From Methanosarcina thermophila TM-1 (lineage in GTDB: Archaea > Halobacteriota > Methanosarcinia > Methanosarcinales > Methanosarcinaceae), in NCBI RefSeq assembly GCF_000969885.1, contig NZ_CP009501.1:1984001-2048000 (forward strand): a stretch of 64,000 nucleotides of DNA. The letters are read 5' to 3'. The translations under genes were made by a program, and so were the position numbers. Below, in pieces: positions 49,810 to 62,060 of this stretch. The notes beneath the pieces are model-generated. The model did no database searches and was not told the origin of the DNA. It saw only the letters and a list, made by a program, of their open reading frames with translations. Positions within the stretch are counted from its first letter, which is position 1. Each line of letters starts with the position of its first letter.

Positions 49810-50904
49810 TCATTTCCTTCTTGAATATACAAACAGAATCAGAATTCCTACCCCCATTCCTGCTAACAGATATAATTTATCTACAGATTGTCTGGAAGAT
49901 TTGGGCTTTTGAATGTTCTCTCCGGAAAGCTTTGTTTGATTGCTCACTTCTGTGAGATTCTTATCTAAATTTAAAACTTCAGAAACTTCGCTTCTATCTG
50001 CATTTTCGGAGCTTGTTGGTTTCATAGAAGATTCGGTTTTTGGGGAAGAAGAGCCTCTAGAAGCAGATTTTTTGGAGGATGAATTTTCGTTGGAGGATGA
50101 ATTTTCGTTGGAGGATGAATCTTCGTTGGAAGATGAATCTTCGTTGGAGGAAGAATCTTCGTTGGAAGATGAATCTTCGTTGGAGGAAGAATCTTCGTTG
50201 GAAGATGAATCTTCGTTGGAGGAAGAATCTTCGTTGGAAGATGAATCTTCGTTGGAGGAAGAATCTTCGTTGGAGGAAGAATCTTCGTTGGAGGAGGAAT
50301 CTGTATTTGAGCCTGAATTTTCGCCCGACTTAATAGTTACTGTTTTCGTGATTTCTCCTACTTTTATCTCAAAGTCCCCAGGTGGAATTGCTTTTGTGTT
50401 ATATGAATAACCTAGTTCCCCATTCGAATCAGCTTTTATCTTCTGAAAAGCTTTAATCTTCAGGTTCACATTTGAAATTCCTTTCTTAGCTTCTCCGTCA
50501 ATTTTTATATCATAGGTTCCTGGAGGGACATTTGATTGAGATACAGTTACTGTTTCTCCTGAGGCTTCTGAACTTTTTGTTATCCAGACAACCATCTTTA
50601 CCCTCACATTGAGGTTTTTGGCTCCCCTTGCTTCAACTGTAAAAAAGTTGTCTAAGCTCCCTGGAATTTTTACATCTTCAAGAATGTATTCAAACTTCCC
50701 CCCTGAGACAGGAACGGTTTTATCAAAGGTCACGTATACACCGACTTCCTCTCCCGGAGATGCACTCCCTTTTATGTTAATAGTATCTCCACGAACAGGT
50801 TCTTGAGGGGAAAACTCCCAGTTATTAACGGAAGCTGCTGCAGGAGAAGTTACAACTAAAACAAGAATTGAAAGGACGACGACTATATAAACCAATGTTT
50901 TCAT
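49810..50904 (-). CDS. surface protein with Ser/Asn/Glu/Asp repeat stalk
   Basis: I start this at ATG 50904, where a clear signal peptide begins (MKTLVYIVVVLSILVLVVTS); an upstream ATG at 50985 would give 27 extra residues with no obvious role. It encodes 364 residues: signal peptide, a beta-rich region of about 170 residues (WEFSPQEPVRGDTINIKGSASPGEE, VPPGTYDIKIDGEAKKG), a stalk of SSSNED hexads, a short Ser/Lys segment and a C-terminal membrane anchor YLLAGMGVGILILFVYSRRK. The beta modules resemble those in the neighbouring surface protein, so the two may be related. Acidic stalks of this type project a domain from the cell surface. Confidence 0.7.
   Translation of the reverse strand: MKTLVYIVVVLSILVLVVTSPAAASVNNWEFSPQEPVRGDTINIKGSASPGEEVGVYVTFDKTVPVSGGKFEYILEDVKIPGSLDNFFTVEARGAKNLNVRVKMVVWITKSSEASGETVTVSQSNVPPGTYDIKIDGEAKKGISNVNLKIKAFQKIKADSNGELGYSYNTKAIPPGDFEIKVGEITKTVTIKSGENSGSNTDSSSNEDSSSNEDSSSNEDSSSNEDSSSNEDSSSNEDSSSNEDSSSNEDSSSNEDSSSNEDSSSNENSSSNENSSSKKSASRGSSSPKTESSMKPTSSENADRSEVSEVLNLDKNLTEVSNQTKLSGENIQKPKSSRQSVDKLYLLAGMGVGILILFVYSRRK
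50072..50301 (-). repeat. 18-bp tandem repeat encoding SSSNED stalk
   Basis: The gene carries ten SSSNED and two SSSNEN hexads, each encoded by an 18-base unit GAATCTTCGTTGGAGGAA or a near copy, arranged in alternating pairs of 36 bases. A large antisense frame here is an artefact of the repeat. Confidence 0.9.
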
Positions 50905-50985
50905 TTTATTAGTGAAATTAGTAAATCTGTGCACAGGAATTTCTCCTTTTAAAATTTGATCTTTATACAATTTTTTCCAATACAT

Positions 50986-52103: not shown

Positions 52104-52964
52104 TCATAAGCCTGTCCAACTACTCATATAATGTGGAATAATACCGAAAAGGAAGACATTAATAAAGCCGTGCAGGACGGTAATAAAGGGCAAGCTTTTC
52201 GTTTTGTAGAATATAATGCCCAATAAAAAACCTACAAAAGATGTATAGAGGATCTCATAACAGGTTCCATACCCTGAGTGCATAAGTCCAAACAGGAGAC
52301 TTGTAATTAATAATGACTCACCAATACTTAGTGCCTGTGCGAGCCTTGTCTGGAGGATTGACCTGAAGATAAGCTCCTCAATTAAACCAACAAAGAAAAC
52401 CATAATAATTGTAAGTCTAAGTAGATTTTCGAAAGAGAGATCGGGGATTATGTACTCTGCCTTTATGGTTAGATATTCTCCAAAACCGAGAATAAAACTC
52501 AGTGGAACCGAAAGAACCATATACACCCCTATATTCTTCATCGAAATTCCTATCTGCTCAAGTGAGTGCTTCTGAGAGATTATTATAACTGCGACTGGTA
52601 TTGCCAAGACGCCGTAGATAAAAACGAAGGTATAAAGGGTTGTATCAAAAAAAATGGGCATTGAGAGATTTATCAGTCTCAGGATAGGAAGAAGCATCAG
52701 AGCCTGGTGGATTTTCTGAATTTCAGGATCATTTACATATATATTAGAAAGAGAAAGTGCAATCAAACCCCCAATGTGCACTATAACAGCGATTCCCACA
52801 TCTCCTAGAAATATCAAAATCTCGGCTAGAGATATACACAGGATAGGTATTGCAGAAAGAAGTCTGCGCTTTCTTAATTCAAAATCTTCCTGATTTATCC
52901 TCTCAGCTCTAGTTATTTCAGAGGTTTTAAACGAATATTTATAAGAATTAGCTGGCTTCTGCAT
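52104..52964 (-). CDS. CPBP-family intramembrane protease, copy 2
   Basis: This 286-residue protein is a paralogue of the CPBP protease at 44.3-45.2 kb. It has GLIEELIFRSILQTRLAQAL (about residues 192-211), FGLMHSGYGTCYEILYTSF and HGFINVFLFGIIPH; these align residue by residue with copy 1 (SLLFGMMHSTYGTPFEMIYTFF). ATG 52964 follows AAAGGAG with six-base spacing; a TTG upstream is rejected. Upstream on the same strand lies the degraded DUF1616 copy, so the module was duplicated but the partner has decayed. Confidence 0.9.
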   Translation of the reverse strand: MQKPANSYKYSFKTSEITRAERINQEDFELRKRRLLSAIPILCISLAEILIFLGDVGIAVIVHIGGLIALSLSNIYVNDPEIQKIHQALMLLPILRLINLSMPIFFDTTLYTFVFIYGVLAIPVAVIIISQKHSLEQIGISMKNIGVYMVLSVPLSFILGFGEYLTIKAEYIIPDLSFENLLRLTIIMVFFVGLIEELIFRSILQTRLAQALSIGESLLITSLLFGLMHSGYGTCYEILYTSFVGFLLGIIFYKTKSLPFITVLHGFINVFLFGIIPHYMSSWTGL

Positions 52965-53445
52965 GAAGTAACTCCTTTTCAATGGGGCGAGTTTAAGTTT
53001 ATCTTGTATGCACCGTGAGTACGGGCTTTAGGATTTTCAGGTAAATCCTCAAATACCGTATTTCAAATACTGTATAAACTTTTACTCTAAGTTCCTATAA
53101 ATTCTTTTTGATAATCTTCTTCGCCGCTTAATCAATTTCTATGAGTCCTAGAATATAAGAAAAGTAAATCCTCATAAATATTTTTAAAGTGCAGAATAAT
53201 TTGCACATTAGCTAACTACGGAAAGTATGACTCCAGAATGAGTTGAAGGCTAAATATAAAAAAAATTAAATTTAGAAGCTTTTAAGAGAAATAGTTCACC
53301 TAGACTATCTATCGAATAACATAGACAGAAGCTTTTAAACAACAAGGGAATACAACTTAAAATTTACGTAAGAGATTATCGATGATTTGGGAGGCCACCT
53401 ATTGCAGTCGCATCTGTCACTCTATACACCCTTAAGACATCATTT
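52965..53445. other. spacer between copy-2 protease and the DUF1616 pseudogene
   Basis: About 480 bases of AT-rich sequence which, in the intact module, is only two bases long. It carries no recognisable gene. It may have arisen through insertion and decay. Confidence 0.5.
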
Positions 53446-54196: not shown

Positions 54197-54986
54197 CTGA
54201 TTTCAGTTTAAAATAATAAGTTTCTAGTTTCTTCAATTGAAATAATTTTTAAGAAAAGTAAATATTTTTCTAATGTATTTAATTCTTTCGCGCTTTTTTC
54301 CTAGGACATAGATGTTATAATATTTCCACTAATTTTATACCGATCTTTATTTTTCCCATATATTTTCTATGCAATTTTTTGTTATAAGCTTTCTATTCTG
54401 CCTATAATCTTTTTTCTATTTTTCCTAGATCTTTTTCTTTCAATATTTCCGGATTATTTATTAGAGAGGAAGTTTGGATTCTTCAAAGTTTTTTGGTCTT
54501 GACAAATTGCGGCGAGTAGTAAAAAGCAATGGTACAGGCTTTAGATCTCAGATGCTGCTGAATGAATTCTCACAAAAATCCATAAGTCTGCGGGACTGAG
54601 ATCATGAATGCATTGAGTTTCTATGCTGCTATTTTTTGAAACTTTTTTTACTGATTTGATATTATATTTTGAGAAAGTTAACAATTTAGTACCATTTTCA
54701 AAAAAACATTATCTCAATCGTATAATTTTATGTCTTTATTGATACAGACTCTTCCGATATTGTTATTCTTGAATTAATATTTTTAGATAGTGCTACTGTC
54801 AATAAATTTATATACTCTTCATCTAAATTTAAATCTAAAAAATTGTTGCCGAATTGTTATTTAAAAGCTATTAAGATAATATTTAGTCTTACTTGATTTA
54901 ATTTTAAGATATTTACATATATGTTCGCCTTAGATGTTCATATATTTACTAAATGGAATGTATAACATAAATTAGGGGGTTATTAA
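54197..54986. other. long AT-rich spacer ahead of the glycosyltransferase pair
   Basis: About 790 bases at very high AT content with no gene that I can support. It carries the promoter for the glycosyltransferase genes; the last 30 bases include AGGGGGTTATTAA before ATG 54987. Confidence 0.5.
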
Positions 54987-55955
54987 ATGAATAATCAATT
55001 ATCTAAGGTCAATTGCATTCAGACAACAGTAGACAAAAAAATAAAATGTAATGCAGGAAGCGGCTCTAAAAATATCACCGTAATCCTTCCTGCTTATAAT
55101 GAAGAAGATTCTATCGGAAGTATTGTTCTTCTCACGAAGCTCTATAGTGATAATGTTATTGTAGTTGATGATGCAAGCTCGGATCGGACAGCTGAAATAG
55201 CAAAAAATGCAGGGGCTGAAGTAATCGTACATCAGGCAAACAGAGGTCGAGATATAGCTCTTGATACTGGTTTTAAAGCCGCAATTAACCTTGGCGCTGA
55301 TGTAATTGTGACAATGAGCTCTAACGGGCATCATAATCCTGCGGACATCCCCAAGCTTGTTGACCCGATTATTAAAGGTCATGCAGACATAGTTAACGGT
55401 AGCCTGTACCTGAACAGCCCGGATAAACCCACTCAAATTTACCACCGTGTAGGGCAGAACATCTTGGGTAAGTTTACTAACAAAAATCTGTACAAGACCA
55501 AAGATTCTCAGACCATTTTTCGGGCTTTTTCAGTTTCTGCAATAAACGCTGCTCATCTTGATTCCCAGAGCATGACTGTAGATAACTGGATGCTTGCAGA
55601 TGCAGGAAAATCCAACCTCCGCATAAAAGAAGTCGAAATCGGTGCACATCGTAACTTCGGAGACCAGGTTAAAGATCCGATTAAATACATTCTTGGAGTT
55701 CTGAAAACTGTACTGATGGATATAGAGAACAATAAACCGCTTTACTTATACTCAGTGCCAGGATTTGCCCTTGCCACTTGCGGTTTTTATATGGGTTTGA
55801 GATTTCTTGAAGCCACTCTCCTTGGAATCGGAAGTCTACATTTCTGGCCGCTGTCTCTAATGGTTTTTCTATCAATTGCTGGAGTTTACATGACAATGAG
55901 GGGGATTTTGATGCATTCCTTTGTGGAGGTAACCGCGCAAACGGAGTCTGTATGA
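54987..55955 (+). CDS. family 2 glycosyltransferase paralogue with altered catalytic motif
   Basis: The 322-residue protein has a GT-A domain and two C-terminal membrane spans (YLYSVPGFALATCGFYMGL, LMVFLSIAGVYMTM), like dolichyl-phosphate mannose or glucose synthases. The N-terminal nucleotide-binding segment ITVILPAYNEEDSIGSIV and VDDASSDRTAE are intact, but at about residue 113 the DxD-type catalytic motif that in the next gene is TMDSDGQHNPAD reads TMSSNGHHNPAD, so both acidic residues are gone. GRDIALDTGF replaces GKGAALKTGF, and the loop FRNSG-type SQSGFRAF reads SQTIFRAF. The frame is open and well translated (ribosome site GGGGG), which suggests a non-catalytic role or altered donor. 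Its partner follows 123 bases downstream. Confidence 0.88.
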   Translation: MNNQLSKVNCIQTTVDKKIKCNAGSGSKNITVILPAYNEEDSIGSIVLLTKLYSDNVIVVDDASSDRTAEIAKNAGAEVIVHQANRGRDIALDTGFKAAINLGADVIVTMSSNGHHNPADIPKLVDPIIKGHADIVNGSLYLNSPDKPTQIYHRVGQNILGKFTNKNLYKTKDSQTIFRAFSVSAINAAHLDSQSMTVDNWMLADAGKSNLRIKEVEIGAHRNFGDQVKDPIKYILGVLKTVLMDIENNKPLYLYSVPGFALATCGFYMGLRFLEATLLGIGSLHFWPLSLMVFLSIAGVYMTMRGILMHSFVEVTAQTESV

Positions 55956-56078
55956 AATCCTCATACAACTGTTCAGATACCGCCGTGGAAAAAGTAGCCA
56001 AATTAAGTCCATAGTCTGGCTGTACAGATGCCAGTATTCTATTAATATTTTCACAGTCTGATTTTGGAGTTATTAAAA

Positions 56079-57050
56079 ATGGGCAATGAACTGCTTATAG
56101 GAAAAAGCGAGACGCAAACAAATAAATACCAAGAAAAGACGTACAGTAAAGGCACAGCTTCCAAAAATATCACAGTTATCCTTCCTGCCTACAATGAAGA
56201 AGTTTCTATTGGTAGCATAGTTCTCCTTACCAGGTTCTATGCAGACAACGTAATTGTTGTTGACGATGGAAGCTCGGATCGGACAGCTGAAGTTGCCAGG
56301 AAAGCCGGAGCTGAAGTGATAGTCCATAAAGTTAATCAGGGAAAAGGTGCAGCATTAAAAACTGGCTTTACAGCTGCAGTCTCTCTTGGTGCCGATGTAA
56401 TCGTGACAATGGACTCCGATGGTCAGCATAACCCGGCTGATATCCCGAAACTGGTTGAACCTATTCTCAAAGGTGAAGCCGATATGGTTAACGGCAGCCG
56501 CTACCTCAACGGCCTGGATAAAAATACTCCGGTGTACCGCCGTGTTGGGCAGAAAATTCTGGATAGGGTTACCAATCTGAACTCAGGTCTCAAAATTACT
56601 GATTCTCAGAGTGGGTTTCGTGCCTTTGCAGCATCTACAAAAGATGTCTTCCGTTTCAATGCCCAGGGCATGGCGATAGAAAGTGAAATGCTGGCAGATG
56701 CAGGAAAATCCGGTCTCCGTATAAAAGAAGTCGAAATTGGAGTCCGTTACGATGTTGATTGCTCAACTTTGAGCCCGATTAAGCACGGCTTTAGCGTTCT
56801 CGTTCTGGTTTTAAAAGATATAAAGTTCAACAACCCCCTTTACTACTTCACGGTCCCTGGTATTTCTCTTGGAATCGGAGGACTTTATATGTGCACTCAC
56901 TTCTTAAGAATTTATCTTCTGGGAGGAAATCTTCAATTTGTACCTACAATGCTCATGATTCTGTTCATCATTGTAGGAATTTTCATGGCTTTGACAGGCA
57001 TCTTGCTGCATAGTGTAGCTGGACTGGAGAATGAAGCAAAAACAGCATGA
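56079..57050 (+). CDS. family 2 glycosyltransferase, DPM/DPG-synthase type
   Basis: This 323-residue protein is the intact paralogue. It shows ITVILPAYNEEVSIGSIVLL near residues 31-48, VDDGSSDRTAEVARKAGAEV, the catalytic TMDSDGQHNPADIPKL near 112-127, SRYLNGLDK, DSQSGFRAFA near 180-190, and two C-terminal spans. Family members add a hexose or N-acetylhexosamine to dolichyl phosphate at the cytoplasmic membrane face. ATG 56079 follows GGAG with eight-base spacing; a TTG five codons upstream is not used. The leader matches that of the first copy (GGAGTTATTAAAAATG vs GGGGTTATTAAATG), further evidence of tandem duplication. Confidence 0.93.
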   Translation: MGNELLIGKSETQTNKYQEKTYSKGTASKNITVILPAYNEEVSIGSIVLLTRFYADNVIVVDDGSSDRTAEVARKAGAEVIVHKVNQGKGAALKTGFTAAVSLGADVIVTMDSDGQHNPADIPKLVEPILKGEADMVNGSRYLNGLDKNTPVYRRVGQKILDRVTNLNSGLKITDSQSGFRAFAASTKDVFRFNAQGMAIESEMLADAGKSGLRIKEVEIGVRYDVDCSTLSPIKHGFSVLVLVLKDIKFNNPLYYFTVPGISLGIGGLYMCTHFLRIYLLGGNLQFVPTMLMILFIIVGIFMALTGILLHSVAGLENEAKTA

Positions 57051-57217: not shown

Positions 57218-58795
57218 TCACATCCTAAACTCTCTCACTATCTTTTTTATCTGCGCATCAGTTTTTAAAATATACAGGTAGTAAATCCCAATAGTTGCAG
57301 CGGAAATTATAACAAGCAGAATCTGATTTATTTCTACGATCTTCAGAGCAATAAGGGTAGCTCCTGCAGGAATAAAGAGAGTGAAATTTGAAAATAAAAT
57401 TTTCAAGGCTCTCGAGATCTTTACGCCGGAATAAGACATCATCTTCAGGCAAAGATAACCGTATACCAGGACTCCTGAAATTGAGAAAAGGGTAAGTGCT
57501 AGACGTGCGTTTCCAAGCAGCCCGCCAATCGTAAGGGAAAGCAGGCGTGTGATAAGGTTGAAAAAATTATAATGAAAACCGAAATGATGTTTCTCTACTA
57601 CTACATATATAGTAGTTAATGGGGACGAAATAAACCATATAAAAGCCCACAGACTGAGGATCTGGGTGTAAACCCCTGCTTCTGCCCAGGCTTTCCCAAA
57701 AATAACCGTAAAAACATCGCTACCGACAATTGTCAGAATCAGTATTGGGAACATGCCTATAATTACGAGCATTCTGAACACATTTTCAACAAGGGAGGGA
57801 AGAGTACCCTCGGATAAGGCTCTTGAAGCTCGCTGGAAAAAAACCTGTGAAATTGAGCTTCCTATGAAACTCATTGGCAGCTGCAGGAGACGAAAGCCAA
57901 GAGAATAAAAACCTACTACTGCAGGCGTAAAAAATGCTGCAAGAAGGAAGGCAGGAAGCTGCCAGGAGACCGAGTTCATAAGAGCAGCCCAGGAGTCTAA
58001 AAGCGAGAATTTGCGGTATTTCTTGAACCCCTCATAGACTTTTTTCCAGTTCAGGCTCTTCACAATCAGTTTCTTGTCATCTCTCCAGATCTGTCCTCCA
58101 AGTACAAATGTTGCAATAGACTGACCTACAACGCTTCCAGTTATCAATCCGCCTGCACCGATTTTCTCTATAAGCCCAAGCCCTACCTGCGTTGTAGTAC
58201 TCGAAACCGAACTGAAAACTTTTGAAAGGGAAAGTCTCTTGAAGAGTTTTGTTCTTGAATTCCAGTTATTCAGTGCAAGAAATAGCCCGTTTACAAAAAT
58301 GAACGGAGGCACAAACCAGAGATAATCTCCTATTTGCTGAAAATTCAGGACATTAACTATAGGTTCTTTGAGATACCATATGGCTAAAAATGTTAAACCA
58401 CTTATAAACAATACTGCTAGAAAACTCAATACTAACAGGTTTACAGCTTCTTCGTCCGATTCAGGCAGCATTATAGAATACTCGTACCTCATGCATGCAA
58501 TGACACTGATAATGCTAGTAATAGAGATGTATAGAGCCCAGATCCCAAAATCATCGGGCCCATATAAGCGGGTCAATACAGGAGCAGATAGAATCATAAG
58601 GATTTGAGCAAAGGTTGTCCCGCCCGCAAGCGTTAGCACATCGAGAGCAAAGCTTTCCTTCTTGCGGTTACCCAATCCTTTTTCTGCTGCATCCGCTGTT
58701 GTCTCATCCATATCCAGTACCTTAAAAAAGTTTCCTTTAGAGCTGATCTCCATGTATTCCTGCATTCTCAAGAGGATTTTATCTTGAAAACACAA
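57218..58795 (-). CDS. polysaccharide flippase, Wzx/PST family
   Basis: This large membrane protein (up to 525 residues, start uncertain) has the pattern of PST/Wzx lipid-linked oligosaccharide flippases: N-terminal LALDVLTLAGGTTFAQILMILSAPVLTRLYGPDDFGIWALYIS-like segment at about residues 48-90, twelve or more hydrophobic spans and charged loops such as SRTKLFKRLSLSKVFSSVSST and FQRASRALSEG. Possible starts are at residues 1, 11, 15 and 29; the family N-terminus makes the later methionine (MDETTADAAEK, 58711) plausible. It faces glycosyltransferases on one side and sugar-nucleotide genes on the other, which suggests it exports the unit they make. Confidence 0.88.
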   Translation of the reverse strand: MCFQDKILLRMQEYMEISSKGNFFKVLDMDETTADAAEKGLGNRKKESFALDVLTLAGGTTFAQILMILSAPVLTRLYGPDDFGIWALYISITSIISVIACMRYEYSIMLPESDEEAVNLLVLSFLAVLFISGLTFLAIWYLKEPIVNVLNFQQIGDYLWFVPPFIFVNGLFLALNNWNSRTKLFKRLSLSKVFSSVSSTTTQVGLGLIEKIGAGGLITGSVVGQSIATFVLGGQIWRDDKKLIVKSLNWKKVYEGFKKYRKFSLLDSWAALMNSVSWQLPAFLLAAFFTPAVVGFYSLGFRLLQLPMSFIGSSISQVFFQRASRALSEGTLPSLVENVFRMLVIIGMFPILILTIVGSDVFTVIFGKAWAEAGVYTQILSLWAFIWFISSPLTTIYVVVEKHHFGFHYNFFNLITRLLSLTIGGLLGNARLALTLFSISGVLVYGYLCLKMMSYSGVKISRALKILFSNFTLFIPAGATLIALKIVEINQILLVIISAATIGIYYLYILKTDAQIKKIVREFRM

Positions 58796-60536: not shown

Positions 60537-61964
60537 TCACACTATTAAATGTTCGTTTTTATCGCCTCTTCCAACCCCCTTATAGACAAATCCCCTGGAA
60601 ATAAACTCATCAGGCTCAATCACATTTCTTCCATCTACAATAACCGGATTTGCCTTACCTGAGACTTCCTTTACCCAATCAGCTTTTATATCAAAGTAAG
60701 CACTATGCCCTGTAAGAATAACTATTGCATCTGCATTCCTGATGACATCTTCAAGATTATCCGAGATCTCAATCCCTGGATAGTTCACAACATAAGGGTC
60801 ATGCACTATAACTGTCGCGCCTGCCTTCAGGCATAGATCCCTGTAAGGTTCTGAGGGTGTGTTCCTGGCATCGTCCGAATCTCGAATAAAAGCCCAGCCC
60901 AGTATTGCAACCTTTGAATTTTTCATCTCCTTTCCAATCCTTTTAAGGGCTTCAACAGTCAGATTGTACATGTGGACAGGCATGAAATCATTGATTTTTC
61001 TTGCGAGTACATAGATCGAATCTGCACCTTCAGGATAGTCAAGCTTCCTGTTTCCTATCTTGACCCCTCTTTCCAGGTGATATGTATCCTTTGTAAGACA
61101 GTGACCTCCAACGCCTGCTCCAGGCCAGAGTACAGCTCTTGTAATACCTTCCCCTTTCAGGCTGTCTACTCCAGTCCTGACATCGTACACATTTATGCCC
61201 ATAGCTTCACAATAAAGAGCAAGCTGGTTAATTGCTGCTATTTGAAGGTCGCGGAAAGTATTCTCTGCAGTTTTCGTAACCTCGGCTGCAGTTGCACTCA
61301 TAGGGATTACTTTTCCCACAGTCAATACAGGTGAATAAAGCTCAACAGCCCGTTTAGTACTTGCCTCATTGATACCGCCCACAATCCTATCATGTTCCCT
61401 GATATTCTTCAAAAGCCTGCCTACCATTACTCTTTCAGGGGCATGGGCAAGGGCAAAGTCCTCACCTGCTTTAAGTCCTGACTCTTCTTCAAGAATCTGT
61501 TTTGCCATACCTTCGGTCGTGCCCGGCGTAATTGTGGACTCAAGGACTACGAGCATGCCTGGCTTCAGATATTTTCCTACGTTTCTTATTCCCTCAATGA
61601 GTGCAGAAAAGTCAGGTTCCAGGTCTTTGGGGTTTGCAAAAGGAGTTTGGATTGCAAGAGTGACAGCATCAAGTTCTGATATTCTTGAGAAATCTGAAGT
61701 GCATTCGAACTTGCCAGCTTTCACAACTTTGCTAATAAGCTCTTCAAGGCCAGGTTCCTCTCCTTTGAGAGGGCTCTCTCCACGGTTGAGCATATCGATT
61801 TTGTAACTTGAGCTTTTTGAGTTACGCTGGAAGCCGAGAACTTTATCAAAACAGGGAGCATCGGCAAAAAGAACAGCTGAAGGAATACCTACATAGCCCA
61901 TTCCAATTACTCCCACTTTTTTAATTGGGCCTCTTTCCTCGAAAAGTTTTTCTAATTTATTCAT
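60537..61964 (-). CDS. nucleotide-sugar dehydrogenase, WecC/WbpA type
   Basis: The enzyme oxidises C6 of a UDP-sugar to a uronic acid in two NAD-dependent steps. Motifs are VGVIGMGYVGIPSAVLFA for NAD (about residues 16-33), LESTITPGTTEGMAKQIL (about 141-158), the active-site Cys in WPGAGVGGHCLTKDTYHLER (about 277-296), WAFIRDSDDARNTPSEP and ADAIVILTGHSAY. I use ATG 61964 as start (MNKLEKLF), eight bases after GGAAAG; upstream GTG and ATG give two or three extra residues. Product 475 residues. WbpA/WecC relatives act on UDP-GlcNAc or UDP-ManNAc; the companion genes favour the first. Confidence 0.92.
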   Translation of the reverse strand: MNKLEKLFEERGPIKKVGVIGMGYVGIPSAVLFADAPCFDKVLGFQRNSKSSSYKIDMLNRGESPLKGEEPGLEELISKVVKAGKFECTSDFSRISELDAVTLAIQTPFANPKDLEPDFSALIEGIRNVGKYLKPGMLVVLESTITPGTTEGMAKQILEEESGLKAGEDFALAHAPERVMVGRLLKNIREHDRIVGGINEASTKRAVELYSPVLTVGKVIPMSATAAEVTKTAENTFRDLQIAAINQLALYCEAMGINVYDVRTGVDSLKGEGITRAVLWPGAGVGGHCLTKDTYHLERGVKIGNRKLDYPEGADSIYVLARKINDFMPVHMYNLTVEALKRIGKEMKNSKVAILGWAFIRDSDDARNTPSEPYRDLCLKAGATVIVHDPYVVNYPGIEISDNLEDVIRNADAIVILTGHSAYFDIKADWVKEVSGKANPVIVDGRNVIEPDEFISRGFVYKGVGRGDKNEHLIV

Positions 61965-62060
61965 ACTCATCACTTTCCAAATTGTTTTTTTAGATTTTTT
62001 AAATCTTTCATCTTTTTAGAGGATTCCCAGATTTTACTTCTTTGAGATATTTTCTCTTGC

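Follow-up and report, generated by a model that had tools for sequence, protein, structure and literature searches.

In the window (the whole 64,000-nucleotide stretch of Methanosarcina thermophila TM-1 DNA analysed here), gene A encodes a membrane protein of glycosyltransferase family 2 (GT2) whose catalytic motif loss is common to all its orthologues. These genes, designated clade U, have open frames that evolve under purifying selection, with the constraint shifted to the first transmembrane helix (helix 1). The reading that we favour, and to which an even chance is given, is that A would be a conserved membrane pseudo-glycosyltransferase kept for a contact made by helix 1, either as a non-catalytic subunit of a lipid-linked-sugar synthase or together with a protein of the surface-glycan cluster.

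A first-pass annotation of this DNA had described tandem glycosyltransferases, one of which had its DxD motif erased. This description holds: the frames of A and of the following paralogue B (Table 1) are both open, the proteins share 55% identity when aligned, and TMSSNGHHN in A stands exactly opposite TMDSDGQHN in B. The RDIALDTGF and SQTIFRAF segments were found as it gave them, while the matching leaders it reported are reduced to a short start signal (GGGGGTTATTAAATG vs GGAGTTATTAAAAATG), the first 26 residues being mostly different. The frame of B had been listed from a TTG at position 56064, the ATG at 56079 being a better start. Both products match Pfam Glycos_transf_2 (PF00535; 73.2 bits for A and 95.6 bits for B) and, on sequence grounds, are family-2 glycosyltransferases of the polyisoprenyl-phosphate type. 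Their best NCBIfam match is AglJ of S-layer N-glycosylation (TIGR04182) with 112.8 and 167 bits, respectively, yet neither was called AglJ because both scores fall far under the curated cutoff of 325 bits.

Table 1. Positions of the genes, motifs and neighbouring features discussed in the text (window coordinates unless a genome is named)
Feature	Position	Strand	Remark
CPBP/Rce1-like membrane protease	52104..52982	-	divergent neighbour
G-rich start signal 5' of A	54975..54986	+	alike in most of the 23 U/S genes
Gene A (clade U), polyisoprenyl-phosphate GT-like protein of GT2, catalytic site degraded	54987..55955	+	322 aa, ATG
SSNGHH of A (residues 111-116)	55317..55334	+	aligned with PfDPMS DADLQH 89-94 (PMC5526996)
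Leu140 of A	55404..55406	+	position of PfDPMS Arg117 (contacts sugar and acceptor phosphate)
Transmembrane helix 1 of A (residues 250-274)	55734..55808	+	hyper-conserved in U and S
VPGFALATC (residues 257-265)	55755..55781	+	invariant in 23/23 U and S sequences
Gene B, paralogue in tandem with A, DSDGQH intact	56079..57050	+	323 aa
DSDGQH of B (residues 112-117)	56412..56429	+	
Polysaccharide flippase (Polysacc_synt_3)	57218..58795	-	convergent neighbour
UDP-sugar dehydrogenase	60537..61973	-	same glycan cluster
Remnant of S-type gene in genome G032	L100:8060-8335 = G032:C1:3894059-3894334	-	conserved locus

When aligned with PfDPMS, for which residue roles are those given in PMC5526996, A lacks the equivalents of the metal ligands Asp91 and Gln93, of the sugar contact Asp89, of Arg131 (His153 in A) and of Arg117, the latter corresponding to a further difference absent from the first-pass annotation (NGSLYLN in A, NGSRYLN in B). 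Residues Phe177, Lys178, Glu182 and Arg202, which are misplaced where this alignment becomes unreliable near the C-terminal end, and Ser135, which was unmapped, were left out. Among the 14 U sequences, the equivalent of Asp91 is gone in all, that of Gln93 in 13, that of Arg117 in seven and that of Asp89 in four, and the Ser and the Gly following the conserved Asp are each lost in 12; the nucleotide residues Tyr10, Glu12, Asp38, Asp39 and Gly68 as well as His94 are retained in at least 13. Six catalytic positions, hand-picked by the analyst, change more in U than the rest of 100 columns that are invariant in 32 comparison paralogues (Mann-Whitney p 0.0003). Motif loss is no proof of inactivity, since residual activity remains in the D89A and D91A variants of PfDPMS (PMC5526996).

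The distribution of the altered motif was assessed in 30 Methanosarcina genomes including that of the window (G000), in which a threshold of E<=1e-60 gave 68 matches in 26 genomes; the named records carrying these loci are mostly Methanosarcina. In a tree computed after removal of the motif columns, A and 13 orthologues, one in each of 14 genomes, form clade U (support 100/96). The D-x-D-x-Q triad is altered and its second Asp is absent in all 14, so that the substitution is shared by the relatives, none of which has the DxD restored, and the altered motif is more than a chance occurrence. In the sister lineage S (nine sequences), the triad is altered in four (DSNGQ, DLNSQ, YPDGQ and NSNWQ). 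Among the other paralogues, 44 of the 45 remaining matches were examined, one copy of G047 being left out, and 43 have an intact triad, the sole exception being a frame-broken copy of G083. By parsimony, at least five triad changes are required on the 63-row tree, and additional sequences from named records agree with this picture (L119, DSKGR, U type; L121, DPDGQ, S type). The genus can do without the A-type gene, since G032 carries only a frame-broken remnant and no match was found in G065 at E<=1e-60.

Under a single-omega codon model, omega was estimated at 0.29 for U (about 0.26-0.32), 0.22 for the sub-clade containing A (0.17-0.28) and 0.19 for S, versus 0.13 and 0.12 for two intact clades, and omega=1 was rejected in every set (2dlnL from 83 to 859; 353 for U). 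Constraint on U is relaxed two- to threefold when compared to the intact clades, yet it is strong. While the U tree has a total length of 5.2 codon substitutions, 22 of the 23 U and S genes are full length, the G081 U gene having a frameshifted tail in which the ca. 14 last residues are lost. Direct comparisons were less useful: dS between A and B is 1.95 and saturated, so that the corresponding omega (0.175) says little, and the closest pair, G000/G047, is uninformative because it differs by two codons in A and by none in B, the B genes being identical. Broken copies do occur in the genus. In the G032 remnant (Table 1) the membrane domain is still readable but the catalytic domain is lost or frame-broken, and broken paralogues are also present elsewhere, such as a frame-broken B-like copy of G083 (L102, G083:C2:1151163-1152094), with a motif decayed to MDSNSHHN (DSNSH), which served as a control for the appearance of true decay.

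Relaxation is unevenly distributed along the gene. For residues 146-220, the acceptor half of the catalytic domain, omega read from a coarse grid is 0.35 in U vs 0.05 in both intact clades and, on the same grid, helix 1 shows the reverse with 0.10 in U (0.05-0.15) and 0.08 in S vs 0.35 (0.25-0.60) and 0.25 (0.15-0.35) in the intact clades. Pairwise divergences follow the same trend, with 0.423 in U vs 0.12 and 0.098 for residues 146-220, and 0.093 in U vs 0.269 and 0.271 for helix 1. In U, constraint has shifted away from the catalytic domain and towards helix 1. The latter holds six (p 4e-5) of the ten positions that are fixed in U and S (entropy <0.3) and vary in the comparison set, and the drop in entropy falls on one face of this helix (permutation p 0.007, 0.020 and 0.007 for three ranges); these helix-1 p-values are post hoc, as the helix was picked once the alignment had been viewed. 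The comparison set (I, 32 sequences) pools several paralogous clades and a mosaic copy of G021 (see below), which is not part of the intact clades used for omega (I9 and I10). The VPGFALATC positions vary in these 32 sequences, and the U and S codons encoding them differ synonymously, a variation by which a DNA-level element within helix 1 was ruled out.

The first-pass annotation had proposed a partner or regulatory pseudoenzyme rather than simple decay, to be refuted by relaxation across the whole gene. No such gene-wide relaxation was seen, helix 1 being tighter than in the intact paralogues, and the pseudoenzyme part of the proposal remains the preferred reading: simple decay fits poorly with purifying selection, a shared loss and a relaxation confined to part of the gene, and was rejected as the main reading given the omega values, the intact frames and the constraint on helix 1. 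It is also rather improbable that A is a redundant copy in slow loss, under relaxed selection and with stop codons still to come. The raised omega of U would suit such a course, as would the G032 remnant, the G081 tail and the broken G083 paralogue, but it would have to accommodate nearly all U and S genes at full length over the tree length given above, the rejection of omega=1, start signals retained in most genes and a helix more constrained than in the intact copies.

Among the points against a pseudoenzyme is the constraint that remains over residues 109-145 in U (omega 0.15, from the same coarse grid), which would be expected of a site that is active or binds a nucleotide. Together with the retained nucleotide-site residues, this could point to an active but metal-independent enzyme in which the role of the metal is taken by basic or amide residues, as by Arg/Lys in GT14 or by NXN in bacterial GT6, perhaps with another donor or acceptor. 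GT-A enzymes without DXD that are metal-independent do exist, namely Bacteroides ovatus GT6 and the GT14 enzyme C2GnT-L (PMC3961637); these are experimentally active and belong to different families, and GT6 retains the sugar configuration. Among the 14 U sequences, Asp91 is replaced by Arg or Lys in nine and Gln93 by His or Arg in 13. The replacements at Asp91 are however mixed (seven R, three N, two K, one S and one G) and do not look like a single fixed solution, Arg117 is lost in half of the sequences, the acceptor half is relaxed sevenfold, and A itself has Ser, Asn and His along with Leu140, histidine being the sole basic residue at the metal ligands. Moreover, in GtrB mutations at key donor- and acceptor-site positions abolish activity, D94, D96, R122 and D157 being named in a figure legend (PMC4728340). 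Altogether we regard metal-independent activity of A as unlikely. Still less credit, and very little indeed, is given to A being a donor-binding sensor or decoy, which would bind lipid phosphate or a nucleotide, perform no catalysis and adjust the pool or a neighbouring enzyme: this would account for nucleotide-site residues outlasting those for metal and acceptor but leaves the invariant membrane helix unexplained.

A recombination event further sets the membrane domain apart. In G021, the intact copy located beside the U gene (L062:7527-8540) is a mosaic that combines a B-type catalytic domain with a U/S-like membrane domain: it shares 92% identity with B over the former and 34-39% over the latter, versus 48-60% with U and S sequences over positions 250-312. 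Its placement beside U and S in the full tree is therefore untrustworthy. When the membrane domain alone was used, with the G082 fragment and the G081 U sequence dropped, U and S were united with a support of 100/95 and the mosaic joined them at 100/100. The catalytic domain alone, with the mosaic and the G082 fragment dropped, did not recover the U+S clade, yet did not reject it (p-AU 0.473), and the union is based on the membrane domain and on synteny. From the mosaic and from this union on the membrane domain only, the latter appears as the stable module at the locus. Elsewhere in G000, a stand-alone protein of ca. 100 aa (L101, G000:C1:1425958-1426269, minus strand) resembles only the two-helix membrane domain of this GT2 family, and short frames of this kind, 81-142 aa long, were counted from the listed frames in 19 of the 30 genomes. 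Such stand-alone frames suggest that the membrane domain may be able to work alone.

The U and S genes occupy one conserved place, a divergent DUF1616 gene being next to them in 18 of 23 loci (11 of 14 for U and seven of nine for S), a count that tolerates one short extra frame in G075. Beyond DUF1616, many loci carry genes for a CPBP protease and a Ser-rich surface protein. In G000, DUF1616 is missing beside A and its orthologue adjoins another intact paralogue. On the minus strand of the window (49810-50985) lies a gene for a secreted-type protein of 391 aa that carries a long stretch of DSSSNE repeats and, at its C-terminus, a membrane segment; no Pfam family matches this protein, which probably belongs to the cell surface and to the glycan locus.

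An intact copy directly follows the S gene in eight of nine loci and the U gene in only four of 14 (G000, G047, G021 and G081). A reading of the tandem neighbour as the partner is thus not supported: an adjacent intact copy is absent from 10 of 14 U loci, and at E<=1e-60 no further close paralogue that is both full-length and open was found in G054 or G083. Obligate pairing of A with B was rejected on the former count, which also singles out no fixed partner; if A has a partner, B alone does not account for it. The candidates include the AglJ-like paralogue in the same cluster, other paralogues or the DUF1616 protein. The AglJ-like paralogue is located 12.6-14 kb away in six of the U genomes whose coordinates were compared (G000, G047, G054, G069, G072 and G077) and about 30 kb away in G021. 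At several loci in each genome, DUF1616 genes also stand divergent to AglJ-like GT2 genes, some 0.9-1 kb away, as in G000:C1 (2050961-2051824 with 2052761-2053609; 1442626-1443510 with 1440712-1441596), and coordinates place the distant AglJ-like copy in this arrangement in at least 11 genomes. These transferases may therefore have DUF1616 as a functional partner.

A matches PfDPMS by sequence (E 5.8e-10) as well as ArnC, and its fold matches ArnC, GtrB and PfDPMS. Its AlphaFold model predicts C-terminal helices at residues 250-278 and 286-321, with a mean pLDDT of 64.7 and a second half too weak for pocket geometry, that of B being better (76.8). PfDPMS (5mlz), GtrB (5eke and 9nyc) and ArnC (9asc) share with A a GT-A domain of the GT2 family and, after it, two membrane helices; A differs from them by its missing Asp91, Gln93, Asp89 and Arg117 equivalents and by its hyper-conserved helix 1. 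Among known pseudoenzymes, COSMC, an animal GT31 protein, is a chaperone paralogue of the core-1 galactosyltransferase that lacks the DXD and serves the active enzyme, unlike A, which has been maintained in most U loci with no intact copy next to it. The plant GT43 proteins IRX9 and IRX9L of xylan synthase are glycosyltransferase-like with dispensable catalytic residues and a structural role (PMC4132061); they differ from A in belonging to another family and to plant xylan synthesis, and in having been tested in vivo. A search of the literature, covering open-access papers, found no report of such an archaeal protein.

We infer from the above that A, as a conserved pseudo-glycosyltransferase, would descend from a polyisoprenyl-phosphate glycosyltransferase of the DPMS/GtrB/AglJ type whose donor-metal site has been dismantled, and would most likely be devoid of catalysis. 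A specific contact made by its first membrane helix, presumably with another protein, would explain why it has been retained. A would then sit in a lipid-linked-sugar synthase complex or associate with a further membrane protein from the surface-glycan cluster, either of which it may stabilise, position or regulate. A mixed assembly is physically reasonable since GtrB is a tetramer in which each protomer gives two helices to a membrane bundle (PMC4728340).

Pseudoenzymes are common, and a pseudoenzyme paralogue is of a known kind, as the IRX9/IRX9L and COSMC parallels illustrate. In the present case, one syntenic locus in one genus offers a graded series in which the motif is intact, partly eroded or fully eroded, and the intermediate stages found in the sister lineage S would make the route from enzyme to pseudoenzyme readable in living species. 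This series, in which the transfer of constraint to a membrane helix can be measured, represents a testable case of an enzyme turning into a structural subunit. It suggests that archaeal polyprenyl-phosphate sugar synthases may possess accessory subunits, and U-type genes should not be annotated as active transferases. More tentatively, and with somewhat less than even confidence, these genes could define a family of membrane pseudo-glycosyltransferases present across the genus, where selection would have left the active site for a single face of a transmembrane helix, giving a dedicated non-catalytic subunit in archaeal lipid-linked sugar synthesis.
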